This document shows, one piece after another, positions 11,840 to 21,911 of a stretch of 41,306 nucleotides of DNA. The stretch's first letter is position 1. Each line of letters opens with the position of its first letter. The translations under genes were made by a program, and so were the position numbers. The notes under the pieces were generated by a model. It was not told where the DNA came from. It searched no databases and saw nothing but the letters and a program-made list of their open reading frames with translations. The stretch is from Hyphomonadaceae bacterium (GTDB lineage: Bacteria > Pseudomonadota > Alphaproteobacteria > Caulobacterales > Maricaulaceae): contig JACOMS010000003.1 of assembly GCA_014324115.1 (NCBI GenBank), positions 1-41,306 of the forward strand. The letters run 5' to 3'.

Positions 11840-12235
11840 GTGTGTTGGTGCACGCACGGATTGCACCGTTCCCCCTGCCGTTTCCGTGGTGCGCCGGTGC
11901 GGTCGGGGTTGTTTAAGGCGGTTCCGGGTGAGGTCAACCGCCAGTTGTGCGCGCATGGGCTGAAAGTGGAGCATGCGCCGGTGGCGGTGGTGGATGCCGC
12001 CGTGATCGGGAGCGCAGCTGCATCGTCCGGATTGAAAGGATAACTGTGGACCCTGATGGGTACCGACTTCAGTCCGGCCGCGAGGCGTACTTTCGGCTAC
12101 AAGGGCTTTTGGCGCAGTGATGGCGGTGCCTGTGCGGTGCCTGTGCCCGCCGCCCGGCCCTTGAACGAGGGCGAAGCGCCCCATCTGCCGCACCTGCTCA
12201 AGGCGGCCAACCGCATTGATCTGGTGGCTGAGTGA
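11840..12235 (+). mobile_element. IS5-family transposase remnant, frameshifted
   Basis: The frame from 11840 carries VNRQLCAHGLKVEHAPVAVV followed by DAAVIGSAA, which matches the DDE-domain entry of IS5-family transposases (N-x-Q-L-x-x-x-G-L then V-D-A-T-V-I-E-S). Reading continues as SGREAYF, then shifts frame near 12092 to FGYKGFWRSDGG and to GEAPHLPHLLKAANRIDLVAE before a stop. The expected second Asp-bearing segment and the C-terminal half are gone. No terminal inverted repeats could be defined. The remaining 12236-12390 sequence shows nothing I can name. It separates rpmI-rplT from yraN. Confidence 0.7.
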
Positions 12236-12390
12236 GGGGGATTCTGTCCAGAATTGTCTGATACCGCAAATGTCAGAGCGGAAAGTGCACGCGTCAGTAC
12301 CAGACACCCGCGCGCCGGGCCCGAAAACGGCGAAAACCCGAAATCCCGGCGAATCCGGATAAATTCGCAACAATCTTTTATTGCGGGAGT

Positions 12391-12747
12391 TTAATCCGGA
12401 CGCCATATGTCCGGGCGATGTATGAGTCCCCAGCGACCTGTCACAAAAATCGCGTCATAACGCACAGCCATATTTCTCAAAGCGGGGGATCTGGTCTGGA
12501 AAATCTGCGCGGCATCGTGTATCCGCCTCCAAGTGCCGGTTTTCAGACTGTCTTCGGCGCTTTGCCGATCCGGGCGATGTTTGACCTCGACAACAACCAG
12601 CGTGTTGCCCTTGGAGGCAGCAATGTCGATCTCGCCCACTCCGGTTTTGATGCGACGGGAGAGTATCCGATAGCCCCTGAGCCGCAAAAACCAGGAAGCC
12701 AGAATTTCAGCACGGCGGCCGGCTTTTTCATGTTTTTGTCGGTTCAT
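12391..12747 (-). CDS. yraN: YraN family protein (UPF0102, nuclease-like fold)
   Basis: The 118-residue protein shows the UPF0102 pattern: an N-terminal helix KAGRRAEILASWFLRLRGY, then GVGEIDIAASKGNTLVVVEV followed by KHR, with the PD-(D/E)XK-like acidic/Lys residues (E..D..E-V-K), and a C-terminal half with VRYDAIFV. The fold belongs to the restriction-endonuclease superfamily; its cellular role is not settled. The ATG at 12745-12747 overlaps the rsmI stop in ATGA, so the two are translationally coupled. The rsmI-yraN pair beside a lipoprotein gene of the LpoA type is a conserved neighbourhood in Proteobacteria. Confidence 0.9.
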   Translation of the reverse strand: MNRQKHEKAGRRAEILASWFLRLRGYRILSRRIKTGVGEIDIAASKGNTLVVVEVKHRPDRQSAEDSLKTGTWRRIHDAAQIFQTRSPALRNMAVRYDAIFVTGRWGLIHRPDIWRPD

Positions 12748-13625
12748 TTCAGATTTTGGGCGCGCACATAAACGTCGCGTTTTTTCCAACCGGATCGTTC
12801 AGCCACATGGCTACTGGCACGCTTTGAGCCCATGTCGGGGAGGTGCTCCCCTAGCGCCGCATCAATTTGCGCATCCGACCATGTCGCGGGTGTGTCAGCG
12901 GGTGCTACGAGCAACACCATCTCTCCGCGTAAAGGATTGGCGTGTATCCTCTCCATGAGATCACCGGGAGATCCATGTAGAAACTCTTCATGGATTTTGG
13001 TCAGCTCGCGAGCGATGACGATGCTGCGCCGACCAAGCATAGTCTCAATAGCGGCCAGCGTCGTCGCCATGCGCGGGCCTGTTTCGAAAAAAATCAATGT
13101 ACCTGTTGCGGTTTGCAAATCCCTTAATGCCGTTTGTCGCGCCGCAGTTTTGAGGGGTAGAAACCCGCAAAATGTAAATTTGTCCGTTGCCAGCCCCGCT
13201 CCCATGAGTGCAGCCAGAAGGCTCGAGGCGCCGGGTACGGGAAAGACCCCAAACCCTGCCTTACGCACTGCCCGGACGAGCTTGAAACCGGGATCGGAGA
13301 TGAGCGGCGTCCCGGCATCGCTAACCAGGGCGATAATTTTGCCCTCCTCCAGCCAGTCCAGAGCTTCGGGAATGCGACCCGCCGCATTATGGTCATGATA
13401 TGAGATCAGGCGCACCTTCATATCATAAGCCCCAAGGAGTTTGCCTGTATGCCGCGTATCTTCGGCCAGGATGGTATCCGCCCCGGCCAACACATCCAAC
13501 GCCCGCAGAGTTATGTCACGCAGATTGCCAATTGGCGTCGCTACGATATAGAGACCCGTCTGCAATTTCGCCTCATCAGGGGATTGCGCGAGTGCGGTTC
13601 GCCTTGTAGGAACAGAGCTGGGCAT
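12744..13625 (-). CDS. rsmI: 16S rRNA 2'-O-ribose C1402 methyltransferase RsmI
   Basis: RsmI methylates the 2'-OH of C1402 in the ribosomal decoding centre. The 293-residue sequence has the signature IVATPIGNLRDITLRALDVL, AEDTRHTGKLL, SDAGTPLISDPGFKLV, PGASSLLAALMGAGLATDKF, and EFLHGSPGDL before the C-terminal part. This is the tetrapyrrole-methylase fold. The length is normal. The N-terminal 20 residues before LQTGLYIVATP are not conserved, but no alternative ATG lies closer. It diverges from the LpoA-like gene with about 15 bases between starts, so the promoters must overlap the coding starts. Confidence 0.96.
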   Translation of the reverse strand: MPSSVPTRRTALAQSPDEAKLQTGLYIVATPIGNLRDITLRALDVLAGADTILAEDTRHTGKLLGAYDMKVRLISYHDHNAAGRIPEALDWLEEGKIIALVSDAGTPLISDPGFKLVRAVRKAGFGVFPVPGASSLLAALMGAGLATDKFTFCGFLPLKTAARQTALRDLQTATGTLIFFETGPRMATTLAAIETMLGRRSIVIARELTKIHEEFLHGSPGDLMERIHANPLRGEMVLLVAPADTPATWSDAQIDAALGEHLPDMGSKRASSHVAERSGWKKRDVYVRAQNLK

Positions 13626-17554: not shown

Positions 17555-18268
17555 TCAAGCCAGGGCTTTTGCCTGCATTGCACATAATTCGCCAATGCCC
17601 TTCTGTGCGAGACGCATCAGATCAGCCATTTCATCCGCTTTAAAAGGTACATCTTCGGCACTGACTTGGAGCTCAATGATATCACCCGTCTCCGTTAGCA
17701 CGAAATTGGCATCAGTCTGTGCATTGCTGTCTTCGATATATTCGAGATCAAGGCGGCATTCCCTGTCGACAATTCCGCAGGACACAGCCGCTACACGGTC
17801 TGTGACAGGATGGGTTTCCAAGACACCACTTTCCACCAACCCGGAACAGGCCTGATACAGGGCGAGCCAAGCGCCGGTAATGGACGCCGTGCGCGTGCCA
17901 CCATCCGCCTGCAGGACATCGCAGTCCACCACAATCTGACGCTCGCCCAGCTTTTCCAGATCAATGGCGGTGCGCAAGCTGCGCCCGATCAGGCGCTGGA
18001 TTTCCACCGTACGTCCGCCTTGTTTGCCGCGGGCAGCCTCACGCCCCGTCCGGCTATGCGTTGAGCGGGGCAGCATGCCATATTCCGCCGTAACCCATCC
18101 CTGCCCTTGTCCACGCAGCCACGGTGGCAATCCTTCATCAACACTGGCCGTACACAGCACATGGGTATGACCGAACCGGATCAGACATGATCCTTCGGCA
18201 TGGCGCGATACGCCCAACTCCATCTTCACGGGACGGAGTTCATGGGCTTGGCGGTCATTCGGTCTCAT
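17555..18268 (-). CDS. rph: Ribonuclease PH
   Basis: RNase PH is a phosphorolytic 3'-to-5' exonuclease that trims tRNA precursors. The 237-residue protein starts [14 protein letters not shown], with the active-site segments [46 protein letters not shown] and the acidic [12 protein letters not shown] near the end. The length is normal. I prefer the ATG at 18268 over the one at 18286 because the family begins MRPN. It is convergent with the XRE gene with no spacing. Upstream lies what is left of hrcA, its usual divergent neighbour. Confidence 0.96.
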
Positions 18269-18329
18269 AGTGCGTTTATAACCCAATCGAACACACTTGG
18301 AAGCAGGTCTTTTTTCACCAGATAATTCG

Positions 18330-18461
18330 ATGATGAGAAAGTCGGTTACAGTTACTTTATCCGATCTGGATGGTCAAGCATATTTGATTTTTCGCGATAT
18401 CGTCAACACATATCCCGAAACCGGCTTGATGGGGCACAACTTGAGGGCTTGGTTCACATAA
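18330..18461 (+). pseudogene. hrcA: hrcA heat-shock repressor, N-terminal remnant
   Basis: The 43-codon frame contains [20 protein letters not shown] and then ETGLMG, which aligns with the HrcA N-terminus pattern L-D-x-R-x-x-x-I-F-R-x-I-V-E-x-Y-x-x-T-G-x-x-V-G. Similarity ends after about 26 residues, before the S-R-T-L motif, and a stop follows at 18459. The rest of hrcA, and grpE that often follows it, are not seen. The position next to rph in divergent orientation is the standard alphaproteobacterial place for hrcA, which supports the call. A decayed transposase begins within about 20 bases. The remnant cannot encode a working repressor. Confidence 0.6.
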
Positions 18462-18468
18462 CATCCCG

Positions 18469-18748
18469 GCCAAAGGGGTCTGGACCGATACCGCCTGCAG
18501 ATCAAACAAAAACGAAGCCTGGCTGTCTCGCCATGGGCTTGTCAGCCGTATCCATTGCAAAAAACCAAGGGGGCAAAAAACCAAAGGGGCAGCCCATGCC
18601 GACCCATATCAAGCGTGCCAATAGCGCAAGATCAAAAGTCAGGGCTCTTGTCGAACATCCATTCGCCGATCAGAAACGCCGCATGGGTCTGAGGATCAGG
18701 ACCATGGGTCTGGCCCGCGCCATAATCAAAATCGGGATGGGACAGTAT
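18469..18748 (+). mobile_element. IS5-family transposase remnant, C-terminal part
   Basis: From 18478 the frame reads VWTDTACRSNKNEAWLSRHG and LVSRIHCKKP, then shifts to KPKGQPMPTHIKRANSARSK and VRALVEHPFADQKRRMGLRI with RTMGLARAIIKIGM. This is the C-terminal DDE region of IS5-family transposases, including the catalytic Glu in VEHPFA. The frameshift coincides with a near-perfect 16-17 base tandem duplication (18557-18572 and 18573-18589). The usual C-terminal tail after KIGM is replaced by the end of a different IS. Confidence 0.75.
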
Positions 18749-18777
18749 ATACTGGATTTAATGAGTCCTGATTCTAG
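18749..18777 (+). repeat. IS terminus plus CTAG target, left end of the island
   Basis: Bases 18749-18771 (containing ACTGGATTTAATGAGTCCTG) are identical, in inverted orientation, to 41216-41238 at the right edge of the window. There the sequence is the end of an IS5-type element including the transposase stop. The end is followed by CTAG (18774-18777), a Y-T-A-R type target used by some IS5-group elements. Confidence 0.75.
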
Positions 18778-21700
18778 TGTAACCAGGGATTTAAATTAGC
18801 CGCAATAAAATGATTGGAAATAAAGTTTTTCATAAACTCATATACGTCAAATCTGGGTGTTTTTTGCCGATTCAATGCGAGCTCCAAGGCATGTCTCAAT
18901 TCCGCCAGCTTGAAATACCCACACTGCGCTGTGGCATCCGGCGTCATAAAACCGGCGTCATAAAACCGGTTATCTGCGGGCATTATTCCGTCACATTCAG
19001 GGTACTCTGCCATGAAATTTTCGCATCGTCCGCTTATCAGGCCCAACATCAGATTGTTCACAGATGAACACAAATCCAGAGAAAACGCACTCAAATTCAA
19101 AATGGCGACATTTTTGCCATTTACGTCGAGACTATCATTGCTCAAGAATGATGCAAAATCCGATGACGGCCCTGAAAGTACGGAAATATTTTCGGCTTTG
19201 TCGCCTTTCAGGTCCTTATAATTTTCTCCGACGATAAATTTCATGCCGAGAACACCGTATAACTCAAGAAAATCCTGGATAAGTTCGGCCCTATCGGAGA
19301 AACACAGGATCGTATGAGAGGAGGATAGATCCCGATCCTCAAAACTTGCATTGCAAACATGACTACTATCCGGTAAGTCGCCAAACTTGGTTTTTGTGGT
19401 GTCTAACTTGGAGAGAAAAGATGAAAGCCTGATGATATATTCCTCTTTGTCATACACGGCATATTCGCGAAAAAGATAATTCGGCAGTGCTCCCGCCATG
19501 TCCAGTAATTCCCTGTAACTTTTTTTTTCGAGTGTTTCACATAGTCGCTCTCGCTTTTTTGCAGAGGATTGTGATGTCTTCAGGCATGCCCGGACATCAT
19601 CCACATAAGTCTCGAAAGACAGGAGCCTGGTTAGCTCTTCTCTTTTCTGTTTTGCCAGGGATTTCGGATTTTCGATAATGTTAACAAGGGCCCGTGCAGC
19701 TTCTTCCACATCGCCATAACCAACAGCATATATGACTCCTTCGTAATCTTGAATGATGGGCCCAAATCCTGTTGCATCTCTAAATACCAAGGCGGGGGTT
19801 TCACTCTCAATCGCGTCCAAAACGACGTTGGGATAGGGGTCCAGACGCGAAGACAGAAAAAATACATCCGCACATGTGAAGAAAATATCCATTGAATCTT
19901 GATGGGGAACAAAAAACACGAAATCCCCGATTGTATGTACCCTAAGGAAGTAATCAAGATAGAGTGCATGCTCGGGATCTTTCTTGACGTCGAATTTTCC
20001 GCCGACCCATATGAATCGCCAATCATATGCATCGCTCTGATCAATCACTTTCCTGGCTGTTTGAACGAAGAGATCCAGCCCTTTGCGGGTATTGATCTGC
20101 CCAGCCCCCAGAACAACTTTTACTTTGTCTGAGTCAACGCCGAACATTTTGTTAAACGCATCACGCGACATGACATCATGCTTGGGACCGGACTTGTTAA
20201 AACCCTGCGGCCGAATGGTTGATATGCCTTGAGGAATATCCGAGGCAGGATGAAACTCTCTGAGTTCCTGCCGGAAAGAGTCTCGAACAATGGCCGCTGG
20301 AAAAATTGCATGATCAGAGAGTATCAACGCACGGGAAGAATGTCCGTGCGGTAACACATAAAACGCGAATTCGTGAAACAGTGATAACACACTCATTTTG
20401 TTGGCCAAAAACCGCGGAATTGTTGGGTAACATACGATTGAATTTACCAGTGCAGTATCAGCATTGAATTCATCCTTCAGGCTTTTGAGGGCTTCCCGGA
20501 AAGTGTCGACATCGGACCAGCCAACAAGATACCTTACAGAAACCTCACGAAAAGCATCATCAAGGATACCTGATTTTCCTGTCCAAATGACCACGTTGCA
20601 GGTGTTGGACAAAAACTTCGCCAAATTCACCGCCACAACAGGAGCACCCGTGCGGCTCGACTCATGGGTGACTAATATGACGGTTTTCTTTGATTTGACA
20701 TATTTTATCTGCCCATCAAGTACCTCAATATCCCCAAGGCCGAGCGAGAGGCGGCCTTCGTCCCGGCCAAAATTTTCGAAGTGCAACGCCGGTTCGCGGA
20801 CGTTGTCTATCAGATCCGGGTAAGTCTCAATATAGAACCTGAAATCAAATTGAGTATTTGGTGGAATGCCGAGGTTCTGTCCGTAGAGTAAATAATGTTC
20901 ATGGGGGTTTTCAAGCTTTTCACCTTTGAAAAAAGAGCGATAGTAGGCTTCATCCAGGATCCCTAAATCCTTCAGTTGCAATACAGCATCATTTAATTGA
21001 TCGGCAGTCTCATAGATCCCCATGATTCTTTTGCGGTGAATAAAGGCTCTGTGAGAAAAATAATCGTTAAACAGGGATTTATAGGCTCGCTCAATCTCGC
21101 CCGAAGAGCCTGTGATTTCGTCAGACTGCTTGACGATTTCATGCTTGAGCACCTGTTTTAAATCGGATTTTGTATAAAACTTCGACTTTCTATGAGGCGA
21201 ATACCGCCTGATAATCAAATATTCGAAACCCGCAGTCGCCAGATTGGGATATCTTGAAAATCCATACCCTGCCGATTTGAAATCATCCCACGCTTCGGAT
21301 GAGGGTATGGAATAATAATCCGCATAAAAATCAGGATTGAAGTAGAGGCTTTGAGCCTCGTCCAGAAAACTAAATGAACCGGAAACTTCACTGGACAGAA
21401 AAGTATTTAACCCTATCCCCGCCACTTTACGGGATGTGATCGAACGGAAGCGTTCAATCCCCCCGACATTGACGAAGTGCTCTTCCGGTAGAAGAGCAAA
21501 ATCCACCAAAGCTAAATATTTTTTTTTATAATCGCTCAGATTGAAGGCATACCTCGCCCCCTTGTCGTAGACGAAAGTCCTCTGAAAACCTTTAAAAACA
21601 GCCGTAATTCTTTCTTGTGTTTCTGAATAGGCGTCCGGGTTGGGTGAAGCACCGTAGCGACACCCCAAATAACAAAAATGGAAAAACGGATTCTGGTCGG

Positions 21701-21911
21701 CCCCGATATTATACTTTTTTGCATACCACTTCGGGTCAAACCAGTGATTGGGACGCAATTGTTTCTGCCACCCTTTATCACAATAATGTTGCCAAACATT
21801 GCGGGAATTCAAAACGACGCCGAGATTAGCGCCTTTAGCATACGCGACAGCGTCAAACTCCAAAAATGGGGTCAGGGAAAGCCCGTAGCAGCCCCTTTCA
21901 AAATGCTGCAT
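18774..21911 (-). CDS. Large GT4-type glycosyltransferase with N-terminal repeats
   Basis: A 1045-residue protein. Residues 1 to about 400 carry degenerate units of the form F-D-x-x-x-Y ... H-Y/F-x-x-x-G-x-x-x-G-x-x-P, for example WFDPKWYAKKYNIGADQNPF followed by FHFCYLGCRYG. A GT-B glycosyltransferase follows: the acceptor-side start VILVTHESSRTGAPVVAVNL (about 410), and the donor domain with GAGQINTRKGLDLFVQTARK, FFLSSRLDPYPNVVLDAIE and a final helix near 760. The last 250 residues match nothing I know. It likely adds sugars to a surface polysaccharide. The first methionine falls inside a repeat unit, and the frame upstream is open except for one TAA. The stop codon TAG lies inside the CTAG at the IS junction. 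Confidence 0.78.
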   Translation of the reverse strand: MQHFERGCYGLSLTPFLEFDAVAYAKGANLGVVLNSRNVWQHYCDKGWQKQLRPNHWFDPKWYAKKYNIGADQNPFFHFCYLGCRYGASPNPDAYSETQERITAVFKGFQRTFVYDKGARYAFNLSDYKKKYLALVDFALLPEEHFVNVGGIERFRSITSRKVAGIGLNTFLSSEVSGSFSFLDEAQSLYFNPDFYADYYSIPSSEAWDDFKSAGYGFSRYPNLATAGFEYLIIRRYSPHRKSKFYTKSDLKQVLKHEIVKQSDEITGSSGEIERAYKSLFNDYFSHRAFIHRKRIMGIYETADQLNDAVLQLKDLGILDEAYYRSFFKGEKLENPHEHYLLYGQNLGIPPNTQFDFRFYIETYPDLIDNVREPALHFENFGRDEGRLSLGLGDIEVLDGQIKYVKSKKTVILVTHESSRTGAPVVAVNLAKFLSNTCNVVIWTGKSGILDDAFREVSVRYLVGWSDVDTFREALKSLKDEFNADTALVNSIVCYPTIPRFLANKMSVLSLFHEFAFYVLPHGHSSRALILSDHAIFPAAIVRDSFRQELREFHPASDIPQGISTIRPQGFNKSGPKHDVMSRDAFNKMFGVDSDKVKVVLGAGQINTRKGLDLFVQTARKVIDQSDAYDWRFIWVGGKFDVKKDPEHALYLDYFLRVHTIGDFVFFVPHQDSMDIFFTCADVFFLSSRLDPYPNVVLDAIESETPALVFRDATGFGPIIQDYEGVIYAVGYGDVEEAARALVNIIENPKSLAKQKREELTRLLSFETYVDDVRACLKTSQSSAKKRERLCETLEKKSYRELLDMAGALPNYLFREYAVYDKEEYIIRLSSFLSKLDTTKTKFGDLPDSSHVCNASFEDRDLSSSHTILCFSDRAELIQDFLELYGVLGMKFIVGENYKDLKGDKAENISVLSGPSSDFASFLSNDSLDVNGKNVAILNLSAFSLDLCSSVNNLMLGLISGRCENFMAEYPECDGIMPADNRFYDAGFMTPDATAQCGYFKLAELRHALELALNRQKTPRFDVYEFMKNFISNHFIAANLNPWLH

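Follow-up and report, generated by a model that had tools for sequence, protein, structure and literature searches.

An IS5-like element very probably destroyed the repressor gene hrcA in this genome (G000 in our comparisons), after which the CIRCE operator before groESL decayed and groESL was most likely left to be driven by RpoH; two further lineages of the family have, independently, lost hrcA and CIRCE as well. The locus lies on contig C3, which is the whole 41,306-nt stretch of DNA that was analysed (the window) and belongs to a MAG of 2.32 Mb in 125 contigs, 90.2% complete (Table 1).

Table 1. Window coordinates of the features at the hrcA locus and of the second IS end
Feature	Positions	Strand	Evidence
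rph (ribonuclease PH)	17555..18286	-	72-77% to same-genus Rph
hrcA remnant, first 32 codons, decaying	18330..18426	+	tblastn to relatives, shuffle test, column frequencies in 51 relatives
Internal piece of multicopy IS5-like element, including C-terminal end of transposase frame	18427..18740	+	88-90% to other genome copies; NF033581 E 1.8e-7
IS terminal repeat ending in CTAG (TTAATGAGTCCTGATTCTAG), island border	18749..18779	+	66 genome matches
Second copy of same IS end, contig edge	41210..41303	-	94.7% to L140 161-254; exact terminal repeat

Divergent from rph, at the position occupied by hrcA in relatives, lies a frame of 43 aa that opens with an ATG at 18330 (a second ATG follows at 18333) and ends with a TAA stop at 18459-18461. 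The rph gene itself has its nearest named counterpart (68%) in a MAG that carries the label Hellea balneolensis; next come those of other alphaproteobacteria, e.g. Hyphobacterium. Pfam and NCBIfam profile scans of the 43-aa frame gave no match, because the HrcA piece is too short for these libraries, and synteny and tblastn were used instead. Searching the rph-upstream DNA of 118 related loci with the 43 residues as query, we detected N-terminal portions of HrcA in the matching position and on the same strand, at about 50-68% identity over 23-28 residues, the best match being to L039 (68% over 25 aa, E 3.6e-6) and further ones to L027, L017, L053, L043 and others. Against four HrcA N-termini the frame reached BLOSUM62 scores of 68-87, in each case above all 2000 shuffles (maximum 39). 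The initial annotation had placed a truncated hrcA of about 26 residues here, a reading to be abandoned if the frame turned out to be unrelated to HrcA; tblastn and the shuffle test establish the homology, and the surviving portion is slightly longer than claimed, at 32 codons.

The remnant is itself decaying. Within the aligned block, position 7 is Q where 51/51 relatives have R, position 9 is Y where 50/51 have R, and position 20 is P where 48/51 have L and all have a hydrophobic residue; these changes at invariant sites look like the product of relaxed selection. A PF01628 profile search of the whole assembly, in which a Caulobacter control was positive, returned 0 candidates for another hrcA, in agreement with the absence of a second copy that the initial annotation had considered. 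With no PF01628 domain genome-wide, a frame that stops at 43 aa and conserved N-terminal residues lost, the locus does not have the properties of a functional HrcA; it has those of an hrcA pseudogene, with interrupted HrcA homology at the syntenic place. At the sequence level, then, the loss of hrcA is confirmed as an HrcA start at the syntenic place that is followed by an IS piece, and the MAG's missing tenth could at most conceivably hold an hrcA paralogue.

That hrcA runs into a decayed transposase, as had been proposed, is borne out by the sequence from 18427 onwards. The repeat at 18427-18740 has 44 matched pieces of all sizes in the genome, several of the long ones 88-90% identical, and the 57 C-terminal residues of its transposase piece match NF033581 (IS5 family) with an E-value of 1.8e-7, far under the curated cut-off, and IS1182 weakly, with no full copy delimited. 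Other long copies begin to match at the same base as the 18427 piece; at this boundary they read GCCGGCTGCCA followed by TGATGGGGCACAG, and the hrcA side here reads GAAACCGGCT followed by TGATGGGGCACAA. Since the other copies continue leftward past the boundary, the join lies inside the IS. It carries a short CCGGCT microhomology, and probably represents a deletion join rather than a clean IS end.

The IS end that follows, TTAATGAGTCCTGA through CTAG, has 66 matches genome-wide (up to 2 mismatches) vs 0 for a reversed control. These ends occur throughout the genome, and many of them lie close to a contig edge. A 1045-aa glycosyltransferase-like frame on the minus strand (18774-21911) has as its stop codon the TAG within the CTAG of this IS end, so that the end of the gene may have been supplied or trimmed by the IS. 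Elsewhere in the window, another decayed repeat piece (12226-12364; 89% to L140 258-398) adjoins a YraN-like frame at 12391-12789.

Most of the relatives that we examined have grpE behind hrcA. Here grpE is intact and now stands behind ahcY on another contig (C16:33175-33672). The search for an orphan remainder that the initial annotation had suggested located grpE in this way, and detected no 3' part of hrcA either in the ahcY-grpE stretch or in the whole genome. The ahcY-grpE interval contains CTAGGGTCAGGACCCGTTAAGTTAATGGGTCCTGACCCTAG, which is made up of a pair of ends of this IS set back to back; the palindrome spans 41 bp, with the two ends flanked by CTAG (L132 4974-5014, equivalent to G000:C16:32973-33013). 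With an IS piece at hrcA and IS ends beside grpE, one IS has left its marks on each side of the former hrcA-grpE junction, and we infer that this IS caused the rearrangement.

CIRCE has the consensus TTAGCACTC-N9-GAGTGCTAA and stands shortly before groES. In the same-genus genomes G033, G034, G037 and G039 it occurs with 0-1 mismatches, 33-44 nt before groES, and shortly behind a promoter of the form CTTGACG...CCCTAAATG. The CIRCE search proposed earlier found no site within 3 mismatches in the whole genome of G000 and a single decayed one, before groES, where the best 27-mer has 7 mismatches. This ghost operator has the form TTCAGCAGGC-N20-GAATGCTAA, with damaged arms that are 12 bp too far apart; TTCAGCAGGC stands 8 nt behind the promoter and GAATGCTAA 33 nt before the ATG, both as in G033. 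The arms were read by hand and placed from the promoter and the start codon, G000 having been misplaced when the regions upstream of groES were aligned with MAFFT. At the same place as in the relatives, G000 groES has a sigma-32-type promoter recognised by eye (CTTGATT...CCCTATATG), and rpoH is present (357.5 bits vs a cut-off of 323.1). Because both this promoter and rpoH have been kept, groESL is most likely driven by RpoH, and the RpoH-only control envisaged by the initial annotation is well supported, at sequence level, by the combination of rpoH, sigma-32-type promoter and decayed CIRCE.

Among near-complete genomes of the family, hrcA was found in 91 of 95, the four without it being G000, G020, G021 and G087 (1.7-2.3 Mb). 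A CIRCE site within 3 mismatches was detected in 83/91 of the genomes with hrcA vs 0/4 of those without (Fisher p 1.6e-4, phylogeny not corrected). Two of the 8 hrcA-plus genomes that fall outside this threshold (G010, G012) have a site at 4 mismatches, and the assemblies of two more (G032, G048) lack groES. More generally, groES (PF00166) was not found in G032, G035 and G048, all of which have hrcA and an estimated completeness of 96-100%; these absences are probably assembly breaks at groESL, since a contig of G034 ends inside groES. Five further genomes without hrcA (G028, G038, G039, G101, G131) were not counted as losses because their completeness is 67-82% and three of them (G039, G101, G131) carry a CIRCE-like site.

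In G015, G020 and G021, grpE is the immediate divergent neighbour of rph and hrcA is gone without trace, and in G087 the rph contig ends too early to show what replaced it. The loci of the former three, which form the hrcA-less g7 species (L136, L137 and L135, respectively), are AT-rich, at ~38% GC vs 52% in the window; their genomes measure 1.8-2.0 Mb, they sit on long branches in the Rph tree, and a mutM-like gene follows grpE. In that tree the losers G000, G015/G020/G021 and G087 occupy three separate places, and the family has therefore undergone at least three losses. In our sample of the order, 246/248 near-complete genomes have hrcA; the only other one in that sample without it is G284, of 2.2 Mb.

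A stable stem-loop persists where CIRCE stood in 4/5 of the hrcA-less genomes, with a changed operator sequence. Hairpins of 9-10 bp occupy this place in G021 (z -2.4), G015 (z -3.2) and G020 (z -4.2), the ghost operator of G000 also folds (z -3.0), and in G087 no comparable hairpin was detected at the former CIRCE place. Upstream of groES in G015, G020 and G021 (L179, L175, L176) all ten pairs are kept and every change is one-sided. This covariation is not significant alone, as the null model keeps the pairs 17% of the time, so the hairpin is a lead rather than a result. That the 5' hairpin of the groESL mRNA formed by CIRCE acts independently of HrcA, in the stability or the translation of the message, is conceivable and, on balance, rather doubtful.

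The remnant, the scar and the changed synteny can be read directly from the assembly, and for their cause and order we propose the following. The IS5-like element would have multiplied in the genome, and its copies, with recombination between them, would have deleted hrcA down to its first 32 codons and carried grpE to its place behind ahcY. Without HrcA, the CIRCE before groESL would have lost its function and decayed, leaving the ghost operator that is observed at the right place. Transcription of groESL would now most likely be driven by RpoH, plus whatever housekeeping-sigma share the promoter allows. By extrapolation from Caulobacter, groESL is likely derepressed, with a higher basal level under RpoH-only control, and would lack both HrcA-GroE feedback and cell-cycle modulation.

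Other readings fit parts of these data. Assemblies can be mis-joined at IS repeats, several of the 125 contigs of this MAG end inside copies of the same IS, and the organism might thus have an intact hrcA from which the contig was falsely joined, or binned, at such a repeat. A false join does not explain why the remnant has decayed at invariant sites, however, and the CIRCE site has decayed too on a separate contig (C60), the remainder of hrcA is on no contig, and the 18427 piece differs by ~10% from the long IS pieces with the same left boundary, which argues against a collapsed repeat; we consider such an artefact very unlikely. The reading that the frame of 43 residues encodes some unrelated short protein merely resembling HrcA could appeal to the silence of Pfam and NCBIfam, and is rendered practically negligible by the frame's position, its similarity to many syntenic HrcA starts and the shuffle test.

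A takeover of groESL control by an unrelated repressor or an RNA element, rather than by RpoH alone, deserves somewhat more weight and still appears unlikely. The stable hairpins of changed sequence at the CIRCE place in G000 and in G015/G020/G021 would suit it, but their sequences differ between lineages, the pairing kept in G015/G020/G021 is within reach of a few transitions (0.17 under the null), and no candidate regulator was identified.

Under the preferred reading, in which the IS removed hrcA and CIRCE decayed thereafter, a regulator that almost all near-complete genomes of the order retain, and whose loss there is rare, has been lost repeatedly in one family. These losses, each accompanied by that of CIRCE, amount to a natural knock-out set. 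They point to the HrcA layer being dispensable in the presence of an RpoH system, and the hrcA-less genomes let one ask what role a CIRCE stem-loop has without its repressor.

IS proliferation accompanies gene decay in genomes under reduction, and the present genome resembles such cases in its many decayed copies of one IS, its rearranged operons and its small size. That a repressor is lost in connection with an IS and its operator then decays is an event of a kind already known. In Caulobacter crescentus, hrcA and grpE form an operon, and groESL is transcribed from a sigma-73/sigma-32 promoter that HrcA represses through CIRCE as long as conditions are optimal (PMC8119881). Relatives of G000 share with Caulobacter both the hrcA-then-grpE order and the layout of promoter, CIRCE and groES, whereas G000 has a 32-codon remnant of hrcA, a displaced grpE and a ghost of CIRCE; removing HrcA from Caulobacter-type control leaves the sigma-32 layer. 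Degenerate CIRCE sites and a groESL without CIRCE have also been described in the reduced genome of the mollicute Spiroplasma melliferum, HrcA being reported there as the most conserved regulator of Mollicutes (PMC5138195). The decaying CIRCE and the CIRCE-less groESL are common to both systems, but here it is hrcA itself that has gone and the RpoH system that remains.
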